Virus record (IMG/VR): IMGVR_UViG_3300031857_000565
Coordinates: 1-37,677 of that record
Direction: 5' to 3' (one strand)
Source: a virus
Length of the DNA: 37,677 nt
Made by a program: the position numbers and the translations under genes. Shown here piece by piece: positions 4,001-29,065 of this stretch. The notes below the pieces were generated by a model that had not been told where the DNA came from, did no database searches, and worked only from the letters and a program-made list of their open reading frames with translations. Each line of letters starts with the position of its first letter. Within the stretch, counting starts at the first letter, position 1.

Positions 4001-6383
4001 TGTTGTAGGTCGTGTAGATGGTGCGTACAGTCGTGTTTATACCGAAGAATACTTTATTAAGATTAATGGTAAGCAGCTTGTAGACGATGATTTACAAGAA
4101 GTATCCTATGCATTTAGAACTGCTGTATCTGAAAAAGATGCCGCTGCTTATGCAGCAGGTTTTAATAAACTACTTGATATGCGTAAGTCAGGCACCATTG
4201 TACGTGCAGAAGACGTTTCTAAACAGCTTGCTAGCTTTGAGAAAAATGCTGACGAACTAGCAGATCGTATTAATGCTGGTGAGTTTGATAATGCAAAAGC
4301 TACTTTTAATTACTCACGAGTAGATGATAATTTCTTTAGAGATGTAACAGGCATTGGCAGTGACAACGTAGCTGACGGGCGTGTGTTTTGGTCTGGTAGG
4401 TCTGAACAAGGTATTAAGTCAATTAGTACAGGCAGTACCGATCTAGAAACTCTTGGCCCACTACAAAGTCTAGAAGCTGAGATTAGCAACACTGCTAGAT
4501 TTACCGCACTTAATGAGTGGCGACGTAACGCTATTCAACGTTGGTACAATACATTTGAAGACGTAATTTCATCACGAGATAAAATTGGCGCGAAGAGTGC
4601 TGAAGATGTGTTCTTTAACGTAGTTAACAACGCTAAAGGATACGCATTGTCTGATGCTCGTCCTCGTCAAATGTTGGCAACAAAAGACTTCATTATTACA
4701 CAGCTAGGCGTAAAGAGTGTTGATGAAAAACTAATTCAACACGCAGTTAATAACCTTACTAATAATATTAACGTACCGGGTTTCTCACACGTAGGTCAAG
4801 TAATTCGTCGTACAGACGTAATTGAGTGGGTTAAGGGTGTTAACTCTACTTTGATGCTTGGACTATTCTCTGCTGCTCAGTTAGCTGTACAGGCTTCAGG
4901 TATGCTACTAGCTACATCTATGAGTCCAAAACATGGTCTTGCAGCCGCTTTCTCAATTCGCCCAATTCTTATTGCTATGACTTCAGACAAGCCGTCTGTT
5001 TGGAAGTGGGTATTTAAAAACACTGGTGTTGGTAAAAAAGGCAACATTACTGAGAGCGAGTTTGGTGAAGTAGCTGAGGCTATTAAACGTGTTGGCTTAC
5101 TAGACAACATCGGTGCATCGTCTGTGTACAACGCTGCAGATGGAGCACTAAACATCTTTGCAAAGCGTCGTGCTAAATTTAACCAAGCACAGATGATGTT
5201 CTTTAACAAAGGTGAAGAAATTAACCGAGTAGGTGCTTTTGAGATTGCTCGTCGTGAGTTTATGGAGGTCAATCCGGGTGTCAAGTGGAATACAGACGAA
5301 GCACTACAAAAGATTGTGCTACGCGCTGACGACTTAACACTAAATATGTCTTCTGTAAACGAAGCACGTTTGACGCAGGGTGTTATAGGTATTCCTTTAC
5401 AGTTCTTACAGCATAACATTCGTTTGGGTACTACACTGTTAGCTCAAACAACTGCTATTGTAGGTAAACAAGCTCCATCGTTAAGTACAAAAGATGCATT
5501 CCGACTTACTCTTGGAAGTTACTTACTATATGGTATTAATAACAACGCCACACCTGATTTCGTAGAAGATTGGTTAGGTGATAAATTTAATGGTAGTTTA
5601 ACTGAACAACAAAAACAATATCTAACTCAAGGCTTAATTGCTGGTTTAATTTCAACGATTGGTGAAACAATCACCGGAGAACGCACAAACATTGCTTTAG
5701 GTACTCGCCTATCATCTATACAGTGGTATGAAGATTTAGGTGATGCTGTGTTTGACTTGTTTAAAGGTGAAAAAGTTGACGTTAAAAAATTAGCTGGCCC
5801 CACTGGGTCTACGTTAGTGTCATTGCTAGAACTTCCTGAAATTTTCTTAGACTATAGGTACAAAGACGAGTGGACACTATCTGATTTTGCAGCTACTTTG
5901 TCTGCTGCTGGAGGTACTCTATCGTCGTCATGGAGAAACATTGATAAAGCTTATTGGGCCTATCATGCAAACAACATGGTAATAAATAAACGTGGTGATC
6001 CTTTAGCTAAACTATCATGGACAGAGTTGGTAGCACAAGCTATTGGTTTTCAAAGCACAGAAGCATATGAAAGTTCTACAGTATTTGCAACTAAAAAAGA
6101 CTACGCAGCTACAATGCAAAATTATGCAGATTCAGTGATGCGTCTAGAAAATCTTGCACGTAAAGCGTATATGAACAACGATATAAAAGGAATGCATGAC
6201 AATTATGCTGCAGCCGAATCTGTGCTAGCTCCACTGCCAGAATCGGATCGTCAGTTTGTTAAACGGCTAATTAGAGATAAAACTTCTTATGACACTGTGG
6301 GGCGCGAAGCGTTTGCTAAGTGGGCAACACAAATGTCTTCACATAAAAATCGCTTACTAGTAACAAGTCCTTTTGGGGAATAA
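1020..6383 (+). CDS. Giant internal/ejection protein (1787 aa) with zincin-type HExxH domain
   Basis: This is the largest gene in the window and sits where T7-like phages encode the gp15/gp16 ejection proteins. The sequence is mostly helical and charged. Residues ~535-640 stand out: VNVF-like context gives FSHEIIHAV (H577, E578, H581), and ~65 residues later TEEFATSGL offers an acidic third ligand, the pattern of gluzincin/polyvalent-protein peptidases. Residues ~1275-1305 form a hydrophobic segment (LMLGLFSAAQLAVQASGMLL). No transglycosylase domain is seen; that activity is encoded separately at 9238. A plausible role is ejection with the DNA and processing or remodelling of the envelope or of partner virion proteins. 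Function beyond a virion-associated polyvalent protein is inference. Only 6 nt separate it from the gene before and 2 nt from the gene after. Confidence 0.8.
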   Translation: MDEFDIYELPQQQEYAAVPAVNNTLAVLLGADTNSVEQVAQQTATMGPAYVAAERARLVRQDNLLLLKSATLELAKQNNAPAVEKAFAEIKAAEAKAAEPQSFHDDVKDSAEEVIERISISMGKSRDEVISLAKLYSANTATRAALEVAATSLEKRGTVGQLAMGFSGAQSAVDVGRLTPILNRELEKLGYEGERAFSFQSGVNAFLDTLRSIPPDDRGKVIFNIGEVLKPVVGEKNTQRFFEAALQGFSGSTTDALFSSLDLLMLGSLLKAGAKAVVNTTRGVALARKLGAEKTAVDEVANQIASGTNSLGVTTIEAVDAAITARTLLSKELDGVSSAVQQELRTRLEKTLADLDNTLYSGGANAAEVIATKERLQRIYSTENNAAIITSKVNADTATGKIAIDVTYGNSAGKPFNTPEEALAYYKNIKRGDLEVVPVAGKTDEIAEAILDMDSRIAGLTKELNEAKFAPRMGSSGTVDDVKKAFPLLNEQVKGVAGPTSYQLVMPSKTVRVSEAWQTVRETATGPEKFVVDKIVDLLPKQTRVIVREGDGVSFYSPGTDVVVLYNGNRSSNVFSHEIIHAVTTHKIKYGKLNPSSELGKITTRLENLRAAVIKEIPKVKDEELKGYLNYLTKNTEEFATSGLWSINQIPKVAAFLNSVKYKNTTLLSQLWSAFKDLLGFGKKDTALSEWFGLNEEYTKQGLRVNLTRQIETPIGAPVSMLDTARVFPAYLPNKKVDNLLQQYEDAVAARVSMDADIATSPTGYYVRQRTDMPVFVEDIGKISQSELDKIHLKLGKLNPRLASVNSIYGPALTSMLKRTRYGKVQSDFIKASFDKLNAGEIDKVNAALKQTETLKRDMTLAELGEKGITAEKEIEAYYAFRTMRNVEYYLKNKEAANALISKGYSNVIISMGDDGIFSGPAKPVQLDAMRGKKVFDVENNRYVIVSDDVLAEFDSKGIKIFEYAKAQNIRNYKGAITRVAVPPNRATIGDINTVVGRVDGAYSRVYTEEYFIKINGKQLVDDDLQEVSYAFRTAVSEKDAAAYAAGFNKLLDMRKSGTIVRAEDVSKQLASFEKNADELADRINAGEFDNAKATFNYSRVDDNFFRDVTGIGSDNVADGRVFWSGRSEQGIKSISTGSTDLETLGPLQSLEAEISNTARFTALNEWRRNAIQRWYNTFEDVISSRDKIGAKSAEDVFFNVVNNAKGYALSDARPRQMLATKDFIITQLGVKSVDEKLIQHAVNNLTNNINVPGFSHVGQVIRRTDVIEWVKGVNSTLMLGLFSAAQLAVQASGMLLATSMSPKHGLAAAFSIRPILIAMTSDKPSVWKWVFKNTGVGKKGNITESEFGEVAEAIKRVGLLDNIGASSVYNAADGALNIFAKRRAKFNQAQMMFFNKGEEINRVGAFEIARREFMEVNPGVKWNTDEALQKIVLRADDLTLNMSSVNEARLTQGVIGIPLQFLQHNIRLGTTLLAQTTAIVGKQAPSLSTKDAFRLTLGSYLLYGINNNATPDFVEDWLGDKFNGSLTEQQKQYLTQGLIAGLISTIGETITGERTNIALGTRLSSIQWYEDLGDAVFDLFKGEKVDVKKLAGPTGSTLVSLLELPEIFLDYRYKDEWTLSDFAATLSAAGGTLSSSWRNIDKAYWAYHANNMVINKRGDPLAKLSWTELVAQAIGFQSTEAYESSTVFATKKDYAATMQNYADSVMRLENLARKAYMNNDIKGMHDNYAAAESVLAPLPESDRQFVKRLIRDKTSYDTVGREAFAKWATQMSSHKNRLLVTSPFGE

Positions 6384-26940: not shown

Positions 26941-27024
26941 TCACCTCCAGAGTACGTCGAAGAATGCTGCGAGTGCTACTAGTAACACTAGGCTAGCCCC
27001 GATGGATTCGATTATATCTCGCAT
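26941..27024 (-). CDS. Single-helix membrane peptide (27 aa)
   Basis: ATG at 27024, with AAGGT just upstream, encodes MRDIIESIGASLVLLVALAA and a short FFDVLWR end: one hydrophobic helix after an acidic start. The codons LVLLV hold a CTACTAGTAA palindrome copy. The stop lies 1 nt before the next start. Too short for confident gene calling, but position, direction and composition match its neighbours. Confidence 0.45.
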   Translation of the reverse strand: MRDIIESIGASLVLLVALAAFFDVLWR

Positions 27025-27659: not shown

Positions 27660-28172
27660 TTAGTTCAGACCCGGACGGGCAGAGTTAACACTGTCTGCCA
27701 GAACAGCAAGCTTACCCCAGAGTTGCTCCAATTCTTCCGCAGTGAACACTTCACGGGTATCGCTGTCCCACTTTTTCTGTGCTGCATCGATGAACCCTAC
27801 CATACGCTCGAAGTCACTCTTAGCTTCCTGCAGTTCCGACTTGCCTTTAGGCATAGGATTGCTGGAGTCGTCAAGTTTGACCGAGCCATCATCATTACGC
27901 TGCCATACGTCAACGTTATTAGTAACAGCTTTACCGATAACTGACTTAGCGGAGCGCAGGGAATTCTTTTCATCCTTAGACAATTCCCGGATAGCTTCCA
28001 ACTTTTCCACCAGAAGCTTGTGCTCCCGGTCAAGTTCTTCCACGTTGCTAGGCTGGATCGGATAGCAAGTTGCCCGGACGTAGTTAGCCCAGATTCCAGA
28101 CCCTGCCTCACGGCTAATATCTTTACCCTCTTTTGCTGCAGCGAGGGCGGAGCGAAGTTGAGTTTCGTACAT
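27660..28172 (-). CDS. First early-operon gene, hypothetical helical protein (170 aa)
   Basis: Start at 28172 (MYETQLRSALAAAKEGKDIS) is preferred because AAAGG lies 7 nt upstream; an ATG at 28187 is further from it. The protein is mostly helical, with coiled-coil-like NVEELDREHKLLVEKLEAIR and KGKSELQEAKSDFERMVGFI, and an acidic C-terminal part. It is the first gene after the promoters, so probably the most strongly expressed early protein. No family recognised; a host-takeover or DNA-binding role would fit position only. Confidence 0.75.
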   Translation of the reverse strand: MYETQLRSALAAAKEGKDISREAGSGIWANYVRATCYPIQPSNVEELDREHKLLVEKLEAIRELSKDEKNSLRSAKSVIGKAVTNNVDVWQRNDDGSVKLDDSSNPMPKGKSELQEAKSDFERMVGFIDAAQKKWDSDTREVFTAEELEQLWGKLAVLADSVNSARPGLN

Positions 28173-28210
28173 GATAATCCTTTGCAATTGATTGACTTAC
28201 TAGGCTTGAG

Positions 28211-28236
28211 ACAGTGCATTACTAGTAACACACTGT
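28211..28236. promoter_or_regulatory. 26-bp operator-like palindrome with TTACTAGTAA core
   Basis: The arms ACAGTG and CACTGT flank, at 2 nt on each side, the perfect palindrome TTACTAGTAA (28219-28228). It lies 39 nt upstream of the first early start codon, within the presumed 5' leader. Its core is the same 10-mer scattered along the whole early operon. It could bind a dimeric protein as DNA, or fold as an RNA hairpin in the leader. Confidence 0.65.
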
Positions 28237-28254
28237 CCGAAACCCTTGTTTCGG
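28237..28254 (-). other. Leader hairpin (CCGAAAC/GTTTCGG)
   Basis: A perfect 7-bp stem with a 4-nt loop, directly abutting the 26-bp palindrome. In the leftward leader RNA the loop reads AAGG. Confidence 0.55.
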
Positions 28255-28256
28255 TT

Positions 28257-28290
28257 ACTTGCGTATCTCCCTTGTAATCGGGATTCAAGT
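28257..28290 (-). other. Leader stem-loop with ACTTG/CAAGT outer stem
   Basis: An outer 5-bp stem (28257-28261 with 28286-28290) encloses an inner TCCC/GGGA hairpin with an 8-nt loop. It stands between the hairpin at 28237 and the branched structure at 28294. Confidence 0.45.
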
Positions 28291-28293
28291 ATC

Positions 28294-28410
28294 ACCATAA
28301 AGGAAGGTAACTTGCCCGACGTTCTACAAACGTCCTAATAGCGTATCTACCGCATTAGCAAGCATACTGCCCGACTGCCACATATGCATGGGTTCTTTAC
28401 CTTTTATGGT
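28294..28410 (-). ncRNA. Candidate branched structured RNA in the early leader (three-way junction)
   Basis: An outer helix pairs ACCATAAA (28294-28301) with TTTATGGT (28403-28410) and continues GGTAA (28306-28310) with TTACC (28397-28401). Inside, a stem CTTG/CAAG (28311-28314 with 28359-28362) encloses two hairpins. The first is GACGTT-CTACA-AACGTC (28318-28334). The second is CTAAT-A-GCG, loop TATCTAC, CGC-ATTAG (28335-28358). All pairings were read directly. The element would be transcribed on the minus strand from the tandem promoters. It matches no RNA family I recognise; it may be an antitermination (put-like), stabilising or regulatory RNA. Confidence 0.45.
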
Positions 28411-28510
28411 ACTTTTTGCGCCTACCGAACTCGTACAGACGTTGCGCCGCTGTAGTCTAAGCTTTCGGGCTGCATTTATTTATAGAGCTTCAATGCAACT
28501 TGCTCTCATT

Positions 28511-28546
28511 GGTACCGATATTAGCGAGTTCCTAATCCCTTGTCAA
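28511..28546 (-). promoter_or_regulatory. Leftward sigma-70 promoter PL1
   Basis: On the minus strand, -35 TTGACA (28546-28541), a 17-nt spacer and -10 TAATAT (28523-28518): a near-consensus host-type promoter. The predicted start is close to the GGTACC at 28511. An inverted repeat CAGGGTT/AACCCTG (28549-28565) abuts the -35 upstream and could be an activator or repressor site. Confidence 0.75.
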
Positions 28547-28716
28547 CTGCAGGGTTATTAACCCTGTTTGCTGACTTGCGAGTCACTCGCTGCAACCGAT
28601 GCCCCGTTTGTACCGCAGCTTGATTTCCCTGTCAACTGTAGGGTTATTCGCCCCGGTGACCTGTGAATCAGTTGCTGCACAACCGACGCCCCAAAGGTAC
28701 CACAACCGAATAACCG
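28541..28716. repeat. Two diverged tandem repeat units (~89 and ~87 bp) carrying promoters
   Basis: Both units begin TGTCAACTG, continue with AGGGTTATT and share TGC-AACCGA-GCCCC followed by GTACC near the end. The 3' unit runs into a third, partly conserved start (AGTCAAACGTAGGG). Each unit carries one leftward -35 and, at its far end, the -10 of the next promoter. Confidence 0.65.
28607..28635 (-). promoter_or_regulatory. Leftward sigma-70 promoter PL2
   Basis: On the minus strand, -35 TTGACA (28635-28630), 17-nt spacer and -10 TACAAA (28612-28607). It is the second copy of the promoter repeat, 89 bp upstream of PL1. Confidence 0.65.
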
Positions 28717-28722: not shown

Positions 28723-28860
28723 ACGTAGGGGAATACGTAGTAAAAAGCATACAATCCCCTAGAGGCACGTCCCCTAGTGCGGGCAACATATAGAATATAT
28801 CTATGGATAGAACCCTGAGAATACTAGTAACAGTGTAAGTACTCACTAACTTATTGATAT

Positions 28861-29040
28861 AAATATATAATAATATAAATAGATAATATAATATATAGTC
28901 TGGGGGTAATATAAATATATAGGGAGTTATATATACTTTATATATTAACTTAGTAGTATATATAGCTATATAGTAGTATATACTATAGTTATATATATAA
29001 TAATATAGTATTATAAGTAAAAAGTAGTATAATACTAAAG
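28861..29040. other. AT-rich block, candidate DNA-unwinding element/origin
   Basis: Three consecutive 60-base lines contain 8, 12 and 8 G/C, i.e. 84% A+T over 180 bp. It consists of TATA/ATAT runs with recurring AGTAGTATA and the small palindrome AGTATAATACT near 29023. Location at the divergence point between early and late transcription fits an origin melting region or nucleoprotein site. Confidence 0.6.
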
Positions 29041-29065
29041 TTCACACAGTTCACGCAGTTTAATA
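29039..29065. repeat. Short tandem repeats AGTTCACAC, AGTTCACGC, AGTTTAATA
   Basis: Two 9-bp units in tandem, differing at one base, plus a decayed third, directly next to the AT-rich block. This is an iteron-like arrangement, though short. Confidence 0.4.

Follow-up and report, generated by a model that had tools for sequence, protein, structure and literature searches.

A conserved pseudoknotted RNA in the early leader of a Zobellviridae-like phage and its possible role in antitermination

The leftward early operon of an uncultivated phage opens with an untranslated leader of ~340 nt (339 nt were folded) lying between the predicted promoter and gene 1. In the middle of this leader, a preliminary description made from the sequence placed a structured RNA, drawn as a three-way junction nested in an outer helix, and suggested a put-like, stabilizing or decoy role for it. 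Is this RNA real, and what might it do at the head of so long an operon? The window analysed here is the whole stretch of 37,677 nucleotides (IMG/VR record IMGVR_UViG_3300031857_000565). Its terminase large subunit relates it to the Zobellviridae, with 57% identity to the Methylophilales phages MEP401/402 and with the Cobavirinae next. The operon extends over ~18 kb and comprises gene 1, CobT, CobS, primase, helicase, DNA polymerase, ThyX and RNR, with the first ATG at 28172. The features of the leader are as follows, in the order of transcription.

28518–28546, minus strand: predicted sigma70-like promoter, TTGACA-17-TAATAT, 10/12 matches, putative +1 near 28511
28471–28505, minus strand: pseudoknot 1 (PK1, H-type), stem GAGC/GCUC, loop UGCAUU (28492–28497) pairing with AAUGCA (28471–28476)
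28419–28468, minus strand: pseudoknot 2 (PK2), P1 CCGAA/UUCGG, P2 UACAG/CUGUA, loop CGC (28444–28446) pairing with GCG (28419–28421)
28294–28410, minus strand: four-way-junction domain, outer P1 ACCAUAA/UUAUGGU, P2 AGGUAA/UUACCU, short P3 CCC/GGG, hairpins H1–H3
28360–28389, minus strand: hairpin H1, loop of 13–14 nt, 8/8 pairs compensatory, 55/56 cells paired
28335–28358, minus strand: hairpin H2, CUAAU-GCG-(GUAGAUA)-CGC-U-AUUAG, 56/56 cells paired, 5/8 pairs compensatory
28318–28334, minus strand: hairpin H3, GACGUU/AACGUC, GYAG/CURC in relatives (structural alignment)
28257–28290, minus strand: hairpin with internal loop AA/GAUAYG, ACUUG-AA-UCCC-loop-GGGA-GAUACG-CAAGU
28237–28254, minus strand: hairpin IV, CCGAAACAAGGGUUUCGG, from sequence and leader fold; no U-run, so not terminator-like
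28210–28237, minus strand: hairpin V, apex GUUACUAGUAAU, one copy of a genome-dispersed palindrome
27660–28172, minus strand: gene 1 of the early operon, 170 aa, RBS AAAGGA at 28178–28183

Promoter-type sites are overall no more numerous than in shuffled sequence, and the early promoter and its +1 are used here as predictions. The gene 1 product gave no match in Pfam or PHROG, and no homologues were found in bacterial and archaeal genomes; searches of viral contigs with gene 1 and CobS yielded ~26 distinct homologous leaders. Two tandem promoter-like units are seen in the window (28538–28564 and 28627–28653), both with the palindrome GGGTTATTNNCCC adjoining the −35 element, a possible operator. 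In several relatives (L021, L026, L027, L032, L057 and others) the early promoters carry repeated TGTAAG-N5-TGTAAG boxes before the −10 element and 5′ of PK1, which resemble direct-repeat sites of OmpR/PhoB-family activators; the window has TTGACA promoters instead. Between the divergent operons, at 28850–29050, lies a strongly AT-rich ATATA tract, a possible origin region.

The pairings of the preliminary description are present on the minus strand and give a compact fold: the minimum free energy of 28294–28410 is −39.0 kcal/mol compared with −28.9 ± 3.3 kcal/mol for 200 dinucleotide shuffles (z = −3.05), none of which was as low. Compensatory change in homologous leaders, which had been set in advance as a further test, is strong. 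In a plain MAFFT alignment of seven leaders, not fitted to the structure, 82% of cells pair (66% in shuffled sequence, no more than 47% with slid partners), and both sides have changed in 18 pairs of the domain. A structural alignment of seven leaders gives 220/222 cells paired and 23/35 pairs compensatory, with a null maximum of 190 cells when whole arms are permuted among the sequences; it was fitted to the structure by hand, and the MAFFT count is hence given alongside. Unguided folding with RNAalifold recovers most of the same structure. The clearest case of covariation within the domain is H2: nearly all lineages have a stem sequence of their own (CTAAT/ATTAG, CCGGT/ATCGG, CCGAT/ATCGG, TACAT/ATGTA, TGCAT/ATGCA, CTTAG/CTAAG, TTTAT/ATAAA), while the bulged U and the loop GUMGADA of this hairpin are retained in 7/7.

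The outer helices and the two hairpins read directly from the sequence (GACGTT/AACGTC and CTAAT-GCG/CGC-ATTAG) are thus conserved as P1, P2, H3 and H2. The proposed three-way geometry did not survive: the outer helix stands, and the conserved H1 makes the junction four-way. The inner CTTG/CAAG helix had to be given up, as it competes with H1 and is by inspection complementary only in the window and in L010. Instead, in the minimum-energy folds of most members the junction is closed by a P3 helix of 2–3 bp, CCC/GGG in the window and mostly UC/GA elsewhere. A search with the exact hairpin pattern GGACGTT..AACGTC led to matches in L068 and L069 that sit in unrelated sequence and were discarded.

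The preliminary description missed two pseudoknots upstream of the domain, with which the unit reaches ~300 nt. In PK1, 65/66 cells of helix H0 and 94/94 of K1 are paired, and four unrelated loop/partner pairs occur (TGCATT/AATGCA, ATACGT/ACGTAT or ACGTGT, GTTAC/GTAAC and CAACAT/ATGTTG). PK2 is a stem within a stem, with near-invariant GCUUWGAC and CGAG and eight different loop/partner triplets; on the MAFFT alignment 97.7% of its cells are paired, compared with 70% in shuffled sequence and at most 43% in slid controls, and 10/13 pairs are compensatory, the pairing register being ambiguous in L007, L119 and L046. Together the two pseudoknots have 391/392 cells paired and 21/25 pairs compensatory. 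Energy z-scores of this region are ~0 and are not taken as evidence, since the folding program cannot pair pseudoknots. PK1 starts 9–15 nt 3′ of a −10-like hexamer in 16/16 leaders examined; if the predicted promoters are right, it begins within the first nucleotides of the transcript, at ~+7 in the window. A −10-like sigma-pause element inside PK1, as in putL, was found in some leaders only and was dropped from consideration.

Downstream of the junction, the hairpins anticipated at 28237–28254 and 28257–28290 were borne out, as was the near-complete pairing of the leader (z = −3.63 for the full 339 nt). The second of them, with its AA/GAUAYG internal loop, has 121/121 cells paired and 9/10 pairs compensatory across 14 phages (z = −4.60 in the window), and a hairpin similar to hairpin IV also occurs in relatives. 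The palindrome at the apex of hairpin V, TTACTARTAA, is dispersed through the early operon, mostly within genes, with 30 strand-matches in the window against 0.38 expected (a second count gave 32 against ~2 by composition). Sites resembling GTTACTAGTAAC lie at 132, 6353, 11584, 12256, 17278, 17521, 19950, 20954, 21644, 22459, 23596, 24555, 25560, 26208, 26975, 27623, 27915 and 28218. An excess is also present in L027, L038, L041, L058, L059 and L050 and not in cultured zobellvirids; the palindrome is a candidate stoperator-like or other dispersed protein site.

We regard it as practically certain that the leader begins with a real, conserved, folded RNA consisting of two pseudoknots and a four-way junction, with covariation in several genomes as expected of a new RNA family. 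Among the paired cells of the pseudoknot and junction domains there are 17 G–U and 0 A–C pairs, which favours an RNA of the leader strand over a DNA structure. No fewer than six further uncultivated phages have the junction at this position (seven with the window), and two additional weak matches to its covariance model (R2) lie at the expected place (L026, E = 0.00095; L128, E = 0.014). R2 and the model of the pseudoknot region (R1) each occur in exactly one copy per genome, always in the early-operon leader. Neither model gave a match above noise in the cultured zobellvirids MEP401, CRP-5 and ICP2 or in ctOsX528, and a scan of bacterial and archaeal genomes with the PK2 sequence pattern gave no hits. 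Rfam 15 does not contain the family: neither the window nor 11 relatives gave a match at the gathering threshold, and at E = 10 no hit was credible. A BLASTN comparison of the leader with known phages found no match, and a limited search of open-licence papers found none that describes the family.

The leader cores of close relatives are exchanged as cassettes, in two lineages for an rrn-type boxA. Between phages L043 and L058 identity is 95–97% across 9.6 kb of operon and 84% upstream, whereas their cores (−283 to −97 and −292 to −94, ~190 nt) are no more alike than shuffled sequence; one consists of pseudoknots and hairpins and the other of TGTTCTTTAACAATTTAT, a hairpin and the four-way junction. 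TGTTCTTTAACAATTTAT is one base off the Escherichia coli rrnB boxA and is preceded by a hairpin, as in rrnB. Similar swaps separate L010 from L009 and L116 from L119, and in L003/L004 the junction of the window is replaced by a hairpin of ~20 nt directly after PK2. The gene 1 tree calls for two or more changes in the 5′ slot and seven or more in the middle slot. A change of cassette leaves gene 1 and the operon as they are; across swaps gene 1 identity reaches 98%, evidence against gene 1 as a dedicated partner. A partner gene linked to the pseudoknot cassette was also sought and rejected, the sole insertion in the L043/L058 pair being a 106-aa ORF present in few pseudoknot phages and absent from the window.

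Boxes resembling boxA occur only in leaders that lack the pseudoknots (L008, L050 and L051), at the homologous place. That of L008, TGTTCTTTAACAATTTA, was scored as exact, lies one substitution away from E. coli rrnB boxA and has a hairpin before it, the order seen in rrnB P2; those of L050 and L051 are weak, with three and four substitutions, and two of the three leaders share a clade. Sequences resembling boxA were also noted 5′ of early genes in Vibrio phage ICP2 (L134; TGCTCTTTAAAAATGTG at 26999) and in L060 (CGCTCTTTAACAATTTG at 6081); the ancestors of this phage family may already have used boxA.

Three known systems invite comparison. The antitermination leader of rRNA operons has a boxB-boxA-boxC arrangement and acts with Nus factors. 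It resembles the boxA-bearing leaders, in which the box fills the slot that the pseudoknots occupy in the window; it differs from the window leader, which contains no boxA, and rrn leaders have no counterpart of the four-way junction. Lambda-type N/nut systems likewise offer exchangeable early-leader antitermination cassettes, whereas here no linked antiterminator gene changes with the cassette and no N-like protein was identified. The put RNAs of HK022 bind the zinc-binding domain of the β′ subunit and suppress pausing and termination without proteins. To our knowledge, modification of RNA polymerase by RNA alone is confined to very few elements, of which put is the classical case. Folding of the HK022 putL transcript starts at A3, and no protein is required; put is V-shaped and made of two stem-loops (~70 nt), with a minor-groove triplex in stem I (PMC9378689). 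The window leader shares with put a compact, structured nascent RNA in a phage early leader, just 3′ of the (predicted) promoter and +1 and folding from the first nucleotides, and a protein-free action is conceivable by analogy. In contrast, put is present in both early operons (two copies), whereas the window RNA is a single copy in one operon and, with two H-type pseudoknots and a four-way junction over ~220–300 nt, is not a two-stem element. Because the fold differs and R1 and R2 do not match the HK022 genome (NC_002166; best score 10.7 bits, E = 3.3), membership of the put family is ruled out by sequence and structure and the analogy is a functional one.

The slot heads an operon of ~18 kb. 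Neither gene 1 nor any linked gene was seen to change with its contents, which can be an rrn-type boxA or a compact pseudoknotted RNA at the 5′ end of the transcript. The simplest common function would be modification of the elongating host polymerase. Our leading reading, to which we assign a probability of about 0.45, is that the leader RNA is a module for processive antitermination or against polarity, working in cis by way of host RNA polymerase or Nus factors. From ~+7 the early transcript folds into two H-type pseudoknots, then the exchangeable junction and then the AA/GAUAYG hairpin. The nascent RNA would stay on the elongating polymerase, directly as in HK022 put or through Nus factors as with rrn boxA. 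Neither pausing nor Rho-dependent termination would then halt the polymerase over ~18 kb, the ~340-nt untranslated leader included; pseudoknots and boxA would be two ways of filling one slot. Covariation, position and exchange are observed, and polymerase binding and antitermination are what we infer beside them. The put-like role that had been suggested gains indirect support from the position of PK1 near the −10 element, from the rrn-type boxA that fills the slot where pseudoknots are missing and from the constancy of gene 1 and the operon across swaps. The transcribed strand of the operon shows no excess of sites resembling intrinsic terminators (three in 17.8 kb); intrinsic terminators were thus rejected as the reason for antitermination, which would have to counter Rho-dependent polarity or pausing instead. 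This counts against antitermination, as does the presence of put in both early operons of HK022 when the RNA described here occurs in one. In addition, frequent exchange is not obviously expected when the target is the conserved RNA polymerase, and the boxA of L050 and L051 is weak, with two of the three boxA leaders in one clade.

The main rival, which we consider unlikely, is a 5′-end stabilizer in which the initial pseudoknot and compact domains block RppH, RNase E or 3′–5′ decay and so prolong the half-life of the early mRNA. The start of PK1 within a few nucleotides of the predicted +1 in 16 leaders and the near-complete pairing of the leader would suit it, but the sequence conservation of loops, bulge and junction strands (GUMGADA, GCUUWGAC, CGAG, GAUAYG) goes beyond what a pure blocker needs, and its replacement, the boxA cassette, is a transcriptional signal. 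The many conserved loops and the seven or more changes in the middle slot would also suit a decoy: the leader, or a piece cut from it, would bind and titrate an RNA-binding protein or a defence factor of the host, and the swapping of cassettes would reflect an arms race. Such a trans-acting decoy is quite unlikely, as the RNA always heads the operon, is never a separate gene elsewhere and has one alternative cassette with the cis-acting boxA. A compact multi-helix junction with conserved unpaired strands, ahead of metabolic genes, also recalls a regulatory leader of the riboswitch, protein-bound or attenuation type, by which the early operon (RNR, ThyX, CobS/CobT) would be turned on or off. 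We judge this improbable: no terminator or RBS-sequestering expression platform is seen, neither hairpin IV nor hairpin V has a U-run, the conserved core does not include the RBS and unrelated cores precede operons that are 95–97% identical.

The near-invariant GCUUWGAC and CGAG of PK2, set in a pseudoknotted fold, would be in keeping with a self-cleaving ribozyme or a processing signal that defines where the early mRNA begins, but no Rfam ribozyme matched even at E = 10 and a boxA cassette would not substitute for one, making this very improbable. Least credible is a structure at the DNA level, either a replication origin or a protein-binding cruciform; the element does lie in the divergent intergenic region adjoining the AT-rich tract, but the G–U pairs and the absence of A–C pairs already disfavour it, as does a geometry of pseudoknots and H1–H3 that starts at the promoter of one strand.

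Returning to antitermination, we tentatively propose, at somewhat less than even odds, that the leader represents an undescribed phage antitermination RNA family, with tandem pseudoknots and an exchangeable four-way junction, which modifies host RNA polymerase and is interchangeable with an rrn-type boxA, forming a modular slot in this Zobellviridae-like clade. Even with another function, the leader adds a strongly covarying pseudoknotted RNA family that is missing from Rfam. If the proposal is true, unrelated structured RNAs and boxA placed before near-identical operons would constitute natural swap experiments on the reprogramming of polymerase by nascent RNA.
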